Assembly: GCA_023473665.1 (NCBI GenBank)
Contig: JAMCYM010000003.1
Coordinates: 1 to 64,000 of the forward strand
Direction of reading: 5' to 3'
Length of the DNA: 64,000 bases
DNA from: Candidatus Marsarchaeota archaeon
GTDB taxonomy: Archaea > Micrarchaeota > Micrarchaeia > Micrarchaeales > Micrarchaeaceae
Every line of letters starts with the position of its first letter. Position 1 is the first letter of the stretch. The position numbers and the translations under genes were made by a program. Below, piece by piece: positions 55,940-58,688 of this stretch. Below the pieces are notes generated by a model. It was not told the origin of the DNA and searched no databases. It saw nothing but the letters and a program-made list of their open reading frames with translations.

Positions 55940-57046
55940 CTATTTCGCCAGACCCCTGAAGATAAAGCGCTTCAGCATTGTGCTTGGGCTGTCCATGTCG
56001 CCGTATCTGCTGAAGAACTGCTCAGCGCCGAAAAGTCTCGACATACGCATAAGTATGGCGAGGCTCCTCGGACCAGCGTTGGAGTAGTAGCCGTGAAGCG
56101 CGGAGTGCAGCATCAGGTCCATGCCATATTGCTTTCTCCACTCCTTCTCATAAGACGTAAGTGCTGTGCCTCTCGCTATGTGGTTGCCTATCACTTCTGC
56201 AGCTACCTTGGCGCACGAAGCTCCGAATATTATGCCGCCGCCGGTCGTCGCCTTGACCTGGCCCGCAGCGTCGCCGACCAGCATGACATTGCCCTTAACG
56301 GTGACCCTCCTAGACCCTAACGGTATGATGCTTGCATGGCCTGCAACCATTCTCGCGCCTTCCACTATGCCTTTAACCTCGTCCTCCTTCACAAAATCTG
56401 CGAATGCGCTGGCGCTGCTTCTCTTCGACATGCTGCTGGTGCCTATGCCGAGCTCTACCATATCGCCGGAATATGGCGCGGACCACCCGAAGAACCTCCT
56501 CGCATGTCTGTTTGCGAAGAAGAGATCTACCGAATGGCTGTCCTCAACATTGGCGCCGCTGTACTCTGCCTTGTATGTAAGCACATACTCTTTTATGGGC
56601 GGGAAGCCGAAAGCCGCTGCAACTCCCGATACCGCACCATCAGCTCCCACTATTATGTTGTTCCTGTCGCTTGCCAGTCTCTTCAGCTCATCTGCCCCGA
56701 GCCTGTTGGCAAATGTGATATTTGCACCTGCATGCTTGGCCTCGTCGAGGCATCTCCTCGCCAGCTTGCTGCGGTCCAGGACGTAAGCCTGCACGCTTCT
56801 CGCCTTGACCTTCAGGCTTTCCCCTCCAGCATGCAGCACCGCGCCGTCCAGCTCGTTCACTATTGCGCTTCTGTAATCGATGCCGATGCGCCCCAGCCCG
56901 TTCCTTGAGAGGATGCCGGACGCCTTGTCTGCTCCCTCCTCGACCCTGCGCTTTCCATCATAGACGTGAGTGTCGATGCCGCGCTGCGCCAGTTCCTTCG
57001 CAAGTATGAGCCCTATAATGCCTGCCCCAACAACAACTACCCTCAT
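55940..57046 (-). CDS. Geranylgeranyl reductase family FAD-dependent protein
   Basis: This ~368-residue flavoprotein begins MRVVVVGAGIIGLILAKELAQRG, a GxGxxG FAD site. VGADGAVSGVAAAFG is the second FAD-binding block, and LVGDAAGQVKATTGGGIIFG is the diagnostic GGR sequence. GGR reduces polyprenyl chains of archaeal lipids or quinones. The N-terminal extension from ATG 57121 is unlikely, since the TATA CTTTAAATATC lies near 57068-57078, and the start at 57046 gives the normal N terminus. Nearness to complex I hints at a quinone role, which is inference. Confidence 0.88.
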   Translation of the reverse strand: MRVVVVGAGIIGLILAKELAQRGIDTHVYDGKRRVEEGADKASGILSRNGLGRIGIDYRSAIVNELDGAVLHAGGESLKVKARSVQAYVLDRSKLARRCLDEAKHAGANITFANRLGADELKRLASDRNNIIVGADGAVSGVAAAFGFPPIKEYVLTYKAEYSGANVEDSHSVDLFFANRHARRFFGWSAPYSGDMVELGIGTSSMSKRSSASAFADFVKEDEVKGIVEGARMVAGHASIIPLGSRRVTVKGNVMLVGDAAGQVKATTGGGIIFGASCAKVAAEVIGNHIARGTALTSYEKEWRKQYGMDLMLHSALHGYYSNAGPRSLAILMRMSRLFGAEQFFSRYGDMDSPSTMLKRFIFRGLAK

Positions 57047-57119
57047 GTCCGTCGCTCCACGATTATCGATATTTAAAGCTTTCCATCTAAACCTTAATAA
57101 CTGATTTGTTGGTGTTCGC

Positions 57120-57470
57120 ACGGCCGATAAGAAGGGGAAAAAGGAACCTCAGGCAGGCAGCCTCGAGAATCCCAAGATAAAGATACAGAACATAGTTGTC
57201 AGCGCCGACCTGCACGCAGTGATAGACCTCTATACGCTCTCGAAGGAGGTGAAGGCCGTTGACTATGAGCCGGAGCAGTTCCCCGGTGCCATATTCAGGG
57301 TGACAGAGCCGAAGGCCGTGATAATACTGTTCAAGAACGGCAAGATGATATGCACAGGGGCCAGCACGGAAGCCGACATAAGGCGCGTGCTTGACTATGC
57401 AGCCAAGATAATGTCGAAGTATGTCATATCGCTCAATCCGCCGGCCAAGGAAGGCAGCAAGGCGAAATGA
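57120..57470 (+). CDS. tbp: Single-repeat TATA-binding protein (half TBP), non-canonical start
   Basis: The open frame spans 57105-57470 and encodes one TBP repeat: KIQNIVVSADLHAVIDLYTL, VDYEPEQFPGAIFRVTEPK, AVIILFKNGKMICTGASTEADI. Normal TBP has two repeats in ~180 residues; here there is one in about 116, and a stop follows. The Phe of QFPG and LF are retained. The first ATG/GTG/TTG in this frame is GTG 57219, inside the fold. ACG 57120 (ACG GCC GAT AAG) would give an ordinary N terminus, ADKKGKKEPQ. A TATA-like element lies near 57089-57100. A 1-base deletion in GGGGAAAAAGG is an alternative explanation. Confidence 0.78.
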   Translation, partial: TADKKGKKEPQAGSLENPKIKIQNIVVSADLHAVIDLYTLSKEVKAVDYEPEQFPGAIFRVTEPKAVIILFKNGKMICTGASTEADIRRVLDYAAKIMSKYVISLNPPAKEGSKAK

Positions 57471-57473
57471 GCG

Positions 57474-58595
57474 CTACATCTTCTTTACTCTGTTTAGGGC
57501 CTTGTCGAAGGTCTCAAAAAACCTGTCCCATGAGTAATGCTCCCTGACTCTTGCAATTCCTGCACGGCCTATTTCCTCTGCAGTGCTAGGATGCTCGGCA
57601 ATGAACCTCATCTTGGCTGCCATCTCCCTTTCGTCGTTTACAAGGAAGCCAGTCTTCCCGTCAACAACGGTTTCCTTTGGCCCGCCCTCGTTCACGGCTA
57701 TTACGGGCTTGCCGCTTGCCATCGCCTGCAATGGCGTCAGCCCGTAATCCTCATTTATCGGTGGGTAAAGCACCGCAGTAGCATGTGAGAATAGCCTCTT
57801 CAGCTTGTCGTCATCTATGTTTGGCAGCACCGATATTCCCTTGATTTTCTTGGCTTCCTCCACAACCTTTGCATAGTAATCGCTGTAAAACCGATCGCCA
57901 GAGAGAGCGCCCGCCAATACAAGCTTGTAATTACCTGGCCTGCTCATCCGCCTGAATTCCTTGAATGCCTTTATGGCGAATAGCTGCCTCTTGTTAGGCG
58001 AGAACCTTGATGGATAAAGAAAATACTTCTCATCGCTACCGTTTGCATATTCTTTGTATTCAATACCGCCATTGAGGACCTTCGCCTCCCTACCTAGATA
58101 GGTGCGAATCCTGCTGCGAGTGTTCTTGCTGTTGGCGAGTATCAGCTCTATCTTGCTTACCATTTTCCTGTCAATGCGCCTCACGAAGTTAAGCCCTATC
58201 ATGTGGAGGGGCCGCTGGTAAGGCTTCTTCATCGCCATCCTGAATTGGTATAGGTCGTATAGGTCTCTGAGAGGCGTATGGCAGTACCAGAGTACGCGCT
58301 CGTTGTTGTTCCTCACCCAGTGGCTCGGTGCGACGTGTGCGTTTATAACGTCATAGTCGTCTTCTAGCTTGAGGTTGTAGAACGAAAGGCCATAGTTAAG
58401 TCCCTGGACCACCCTACCATAAGGGAGCAATGCCAATCCCTTTCTCCCAATCACTTTTACGTCCAGGTCTGCGAACTCAGGAAATGTGCCCTCCTTGTTG
58501 TATTCCGCAGTGTATATCCTGGCCTTGTAGTGCTGCGCTATCTTCAGCACCACCATCTCTGCGCCGCCCCTGAGCGTAAGATTCGCCTGTGTCAT
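57474..58595 (-). CDS. Glycosyltransferase family 4 protein
   Basis: This ~373-residue protein has a GT-B fold. TLRGGAEMVVLKIAQHY is the N-terminal glycine block, VLNGGIEYKEY follows, YPSRFSPNKRQLFAIKAF starts the nucleotide-binding half, and LYPPINEDYGLTPLQAMASGKPVIAVNEGGPKE is the E-x7-E signature. It transfers a sugar from an activated donor, maybe for AglB glycans or lipids. ATG 58595 is used, because ATG 58685 would meet the divergent SRP54 start and TATA-like CTTTTAATAG lies near 58622-58632. The stop of TBP is 4 nt from its stop. Confidence 0.88.
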   Translation of the reverse strand: MTQANLTLRGGAEMVVLKIAQHYKARIYTAEYNKEGTFPEFADLDVKVIGRKGLALLPYGRVVQGLNYGLSFYNLKLEDDYDVINAHVAPSHWVRNNNERVLWYCHTPLRDLYDLYQFRMAMKKPYQRPLHMIGLNFVRRIDRKMVSKIELILANSKNTRSRIRTYLGREAKVLNGGIEYKEYANGSDEKYFLYPSRFSPNKRQLFAIKAFKEFRRMSRPGNYKLVLAGALSGDRFYSDYYAKVVEEAKKIKGISVLPNIDDDKLKRLFSHATAVLYPPINEDYGLTPLQAMASGKPVIAVNEGGPKETVVDGKTGFLVNDEREMAAKMRFIAEHPSTAEEIGRAGIARVREHYSWDRFFETFDKALNRVKKM

Positions 58596-58688
58596 GATGA
58601 GCTTCAGCGAAACACCTAATACTATTAAAAGGCAAAGTGCTTTATACTTTGAAAATAAACGCCGTAAATTACTAAGAGTTGGCACAAA

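Follow-up and report, generated by a model that had tools for sequence, protein, structure and literature searches.

The TBP of this micrarchaeal genome is probably split into two one-lobe proteins, here termed A and B, which would pair, mainly as A-B, into a TATA-binding saddle that recruits TFB, with B started at an ACG codon; we put the probability of this reading at about 0.6. Transcription in all archaea and eukaryotes requires TBP, whose two repeats in one chain are thought to stem from duplication of a one-lobe ancestor. In the proposed arrangement, A and B would be made from unlinked loci and would join edge to edge as the usual saddle, mainly A-B with A-A also possible, and the paired lobes would then bind TATA boxes and recruit a normal TFB. 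A tightly spaced Shine-Dalgarno sequence would set translation of B at the ACG, a weak start that would probably hold B below A or tie its synthesis to initiation factors. The dimers themselves we infer from the architecture of TBP.

Gene B lies near the end of the window, that is, the whole 64,000-nucleotide stretch of DNA that was analyzed (Table 1). Its open frame (57105-57470; translation beginning FVGVRTADKKGKKEPQAGSLENPKIKIQNIVVSADL...) contains one TBP repeat and closes with a TGA at 57468-57470, in agreement with the original prediction of a single-repeat TBP followed by a stop. The match of B to the PF00352 profile (89.8 bits versus a cut-off of 22.9) is far above chance; its scores against the NCBIfam archaeal TBP models (PRK00394 series), at 67-89 bits, fell below the curated cut-offs of 181-347, and two tandem repeats in one chain were found neither in B nor in its partner, each having one repeat. 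An AlphaFold2 model of B, based on a 38-sequence alignment (mean pLDDT 85, core mostly above 90), superposed on human TBP (1cdw) with an rmsd of 0.7 Å over 81 residues and spanned about half of each TBP target in the structure comparison, and all 44 PDB matches at E<=0.001 were TBP or TBP-containing chains. By its predicted fold, B is one TBP lobe. The claim that another half could not be accommodated upstream also held: with the divergent flavoprotein gene starting at 57046, a second repeat would not fit.

Table 1. Features of the half-TBP gene B and its surroundings in the window, and of the partner gene A elsewhere in the genome
Feature	Position	Strand	Evidence or context
FAD-dependent oxidoreductase (flavoprotein), divergent to B	55940..57046	-	at 30/32 family B loci
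TATA-like TATTTAAA, divergent intergenic region	57070..57077	+	sequence; similar in relatives; genome TATA-like peak
Shine-Dalgarno-like GGTGTT, 3 nt before ACG	57111..57116	+	GGTG at -9 genome peak, orthologue spacing
ACG start codon	57120..57122	+	ACG in 32/43 family orthologues
Half-TBP gene B, 116 residues, ACG start, TGA stop	57120..57470	+	PF00352 1e-25
Complete TBP lobe, single	57177..57425	+	HMM domain limits, AlphaFold2 model
Glycosyltransferase, convergent to B	57474..58685	-	28/32 family and 4/6 sister-family B loci
Half-TBP A, 115 residues, ATG start, beside ribosomal protein L21e gene	C3:209159-209506 (minus strand)		

The window genome (779 kb, 96% complete, a draft in three contigs) contained exactly two TBP matches, each of a single repeat, unlinked and 152 kb apart. 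A second TBP elsewhere in the genome, which the original prediction had proposed to look for, was thus found, though as half A only; no full-length TBP was detected in the whole-genome TBP search, and a hidden full-length TBP was rejected for this genome. Because the unlinked half A exists and a full-length TBP is absent, B would be half of a TBP divided between two genes. The expectation that a half TBP must dimerize was upheld in part: pairing is very probable, but with half A located 152 kb away, a B homodimer is less likely here than an A-B heterodimer or a mixture of dimers. A homodimer would better suit relatives with a single half-TBP gene.

The comparison with related Micrarchaeota covered 37 genomes of the family, the window's own included, and exactly two separate single-repeat genes, the A/B pair, were identified in 30 of them; four genomes, less complete or fragmented, had one half and two had none. 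The family includes two complete genomes, those of ARM-1 (G026) and the co-cultured “Ca. Micrarchaeum” A_DKE (G032). No full-length TBP was found in any of the 37 genomes except G012, where, besides A and B, an 8.4-kb contig (C43, L004) carried a canonical full-length TBP; this copy is probably foreign and would come from contamination by another archaeon, perhaps a host. In the sister family, a single TBP match was identified in 15 of 23 sampled genomes, and it was always A. Many of these A-only genomes were near-complete, so TBP function in general does not require B. Nine further families included genomes at least 90% complete with one single-repeat TBP, while two repeats in one chain were encoded in families f3, f4, f6, f7, f12, and f20. 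Gene A was divergent to the L21e gene at 26 of 31 loci in the family (f1) and adjoined it at 20 of 22 in f2; L21e likewise adjoined the micrarchaeal full-length TBPs (13/13) and single TBPs of other families (11/26). On this basis, A and these micrarchaeal TBPs share one locus. Two further arrangements were observed. In G059, A (L021) appeared as an in-frame tandem duplication at a contig end, the copies being DNA-identical over 90 nt; the fusion may be very recent, or assembly may have produced the arrangement. Genomes of family f11 carried three single-lobe TBP genes (L111, L112, and L113 in G082; L130 and L131 in G087), two of which lay close together in G087.

These distributions bear on a different division of labor, in which an A-A homodimer is the general TBP and B is a scarce paralogue that, as A-B or B-B, tunes or redirects promoter choice, its ACG keeping it low. 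We consider this unlikely, if the most serious of the alternatives: A is the positional TBP orthologue in other families by virtue of its place beside L21e, many sister-family genomes (e.g., G037 and G039) get by on A alone, and the long branch of B (described below) and its weak start codon would both suit a low-abundance paralogue. A weak start would also be odd for one of two obligate partners if equal amounts were needed. On the other hand, both genes have been kept across about two dozen genera of the family, and the conservation of B is no lower than that of A (mean pairwise identity 0.77 versus 0.72), which together suggest a core rather than accessory role for B.

Phylogenetic analysis of the individual lobes, on 83 alignment columns and hence of limited resolution, separated the micrarchaeal repeats (A, B, other singles, and both halves of two-repeat chains) from the canonical N and C lobes, with support of 99/97 when four canonical TBPs were included and 100/97 with seven. 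The B group (100/100) formed a long branch nested with A (97/92). Constraining B with canonical C lobes was rejected (AU p 0.016 to 0.023), as was, more strongly, constraining all C halves together (p 0.0003 to 0.0005). The grouping of all micrarchaeal repeats apart from canonical lobes suggests that TBP in this phylum was at one time a single lobe. The simplest history on the tree starts from this one-lobe stage: the lobe gene was duplicated to give A and B in the archaeal order studied here, and elsewhere it was duplicated anew in tandem and the copies fused; an alternative to the one-lobe stage is that two lobes were homogenized by gene conversion. In the micrarchaeal two-repeat chains, the repeats were 58-76% identical in 12 of 13 cases, versus 42-55% in canonical TBPs, by a simple count in which L118 is out of register. 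We would give even odds to the fuller scenario of a phylum whose TBP reverted to a one-lobe dimer and then evolved into unlinked A/B heterodimers here and re-fused chains elsewhere, with a conserved ACG on one lobe. If it is true, the presumed pre-duplication stage of TBP survives in living, partly cultured organisms. The half TBP had been likened to the presumed ancestor of TBP; since the tree suggests that the one-lobe stage is secondary in Micrarchaeota, these lobes would not represent the ancestral state of all TBPs preserved to the present.

The same trees weigh against an origin of A and B by gene fission, with a canonical TBP split into its N and C lobes, which then became more alike. 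Such an origin would fit the preferences of the window protein, which matched C lobes best, both in 2z8u and 1pcz and in 9 of 10 NCBIfam TBP models. Gene fission is nevertheless improbable, given that A showed no N-lobe preference (5 to 5 in the same models), that micrarchaeal repeats stood apart from every canonical lobe, and that both constraints were rejected, although these tests rest on short alignments and so are not final.

Residues expected of a working TBP were present in both halves. The DNA-kinking Phe pair and the central Asn and Thr were found in A and B, and the QFPG, LFKNGK, and ICTG motifs, along with Asn in column 5, were retained in nearly all copies. The TFB-contact motif EPE, variable in canonical N lobes, was identified in 30/30 A and 32/33 B sequences. 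Two Glu residues of the C lobe are known to contact TFB (PMC7221094); as both lobes keep TFB-binding Glu residues, there is no sign of a fixed pair orientation. The genome encodes one TFB, normal and complete (376 aa, a zinc ribbon and two cyclin repeats, with both cyclin-repeat matches in this one protein at C2:169238-169762), and TATA-like hexamers peak genome-wide at -52 to -29 relative to starts. Single TBP domains do work in other proteins, e.g., RNase HIII (PMC7221094), and the half-TBPs might by analogy act as monomers or outside promoter recognition, with another protein replacing TBP; the retained DNA- and TFB-contact residues, the presence of TFB and TATA-like boxes, and the lack of any other TBP in the genome make this very unlikely. 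Upstream of B itself, the TATA-like TATTTAAA could serve either B or the divergent gene. An element resembling TATTTAAA-GCTTTC-CATNTAAA recurred there (57068-57100 in the window, and orthologous regions) and may be a double TATA element and possible autoregulatory site.

For the start of B, the original prediction had noted that no ATG, GTG, or TTG precedes GTG 57219, which falls inside the fold, and had placed the start at ACG 57120; both points were confirmed, and no other codon is a plausible start. Among 43 family orthologues, the start position was ACG in 32 (related sequences, and therefore not independent events), ATG in eight, GTG in one, ATA in one (L141), and GCG in one (L146), these classes being assigned from sequence contexts and L055 being ambiguous, with an ATG two codons upstream. 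ACA, ACC, and ACT were never found at this position in the 43 orthologues, even though ACG makes up only 37% of the genome's Thr codons. An in-frame stop immediately preceded the ACG in L040, L056, L063, L065, L137, and L145, and the ATA in L141. Most B orthologues had the spacing GGTGNT-N3-ACG, matching the geometry of the genome's ATG starts: in genome sequence sampled as stretches (about 450 kb), GGTG at -9 formed a sharp genome-wide peak (27/214 genes), and GGTG-type sites with a 3-nt gap preceded ATG 30, TTG 9, GTG 3, ATA 3, and ACG 2 times. Because the ACG is conserved in B while A starts with ATG in 29/30, the weak start is specific to B and, on this pattern, is kept by selection. Low expression of B from the ACG, as had been proposed, is plausible, and a reduced or regulated dosage of B is the likely reason for the weak start.

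Other noncanonical starts were observed in these genomes. ACG as a general start codon of this genome was rejected, as Shine-Dalgarno sequences were not enriched before it (3.2% versus a mean of 4.2%), as was an ACG start exclusive to B, since a PHP-domain gene in the genus also uses one. That gene (G000 C3:102164, minus strand) starts at ACG straight after an in-frame TAG (GGTGGT TAG ACG); among its relatives (L236-L238), ACG was also found in G001 and G002, and ATG in more distant ones. In the window genome, RNase HII (G000 C3:82989-83696, minus strand) had an ATA start after GGTGGT-TGC, and ATA, ATC, or ATT apparently serves as its start across numerous relatives in the two families (L266-L295). 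A probable DNA-binding regulator (G000 C2:91130-91996, minus strand) seemingly starts at ATA after GGTGGT-AAC. A literature search on ACG start codons in archaea returned nothing relevant.

In chloroplasts, C-to-U editing restores ACG starts, and B might similarly be translated from an AUG made by RNA editing, or else from another start codon altogether. We regard both routes as highly improbable: C-to-U editing could not convert the ATA and GCG that stand at the same position to AUG, and another start would conflict with the in-frame stops directly upstream of ACG in six genomes and with the location of the next canonical codon, GTG, inside the fold. Between G000 and its congener G001, the B lobe differed by 28 synonymous and 0 amino-acid-changing substitutions, a pattern by which B is under purifying selection and not degenerate. 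The sequencing deletion once considered possible is excluded by this ratio together with the recurrence of the identical frame and ACG in independent genomes. That B is a pseudogene or an assembly artefact, for which only the draft state of the three-contig genome speaks, has a negligible chance against dozens of independent genomes, the complete A_DKE genome included, that repeat the gene with its frame and start, and against the same 28:0 ratio.

Lineages whose only TBP has one lobe would offer a direct test of the duplication step: whether a dimer of lobes binds TATA, how direction is set if it is symmetric, and what is gained from asymmetry. The long-assumed stage of a one-lobed dimeric TBP could thereby be examined in living cells, and “Ca. 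Micrarchaeum” A_DKE, which grows in co-culture and has a complete genome, is a relevant organism. The conserved ACG on B and the AUA, AUC, or AUU on RNase HII also mean that gene finders restricted to ATG, GTG, and TTG will overlook or shorten core genes of this phylum. Bacterial infC has an AUU start codon and is, like B, a core information-processing gene with a conserved noncanonical start; here, the codon is ACG and the gene that of an archaeal TBP.

With canonical two-repeat TBPs (PF00352; 1pcz, 2z8u, 1mp9, and 1cdw), A and B share the lobe fold, the DNA-contact residues, and the TFB-contact Glu, and TFB and TATA-like boxes are likewise present. They differ in having one lobe per chain, in being encoded by two unlinked genes here and by one gene in many relatives, and in scoring far below every NCBIfam TBP cut-off. 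Stand-alone proteins of a single TBP domain were reportedly described in some Archaea by Brindefalk et al. (NAR, 2013); here, by comparison, entire lineages have no TBP other than half-proteins. No report of a single-lobe TBP in Micrarchaeota was found in our literature searches, in which TBP was described as two repeats (PMC7221094), counted as conserved without comment in a 2021 DPANN survey (PMC8407392), and given a one-lobe ancestor as a hypothesis (PMC12917281). The poxviral VETF-l and VITF-3l, TBP-like bi- or tripartite chains with TFIIB-like partners (PMC12917281), likewise depart from the two-lobe TBP plan in transcription initiation, whereas A and B are stand-alone lobes.
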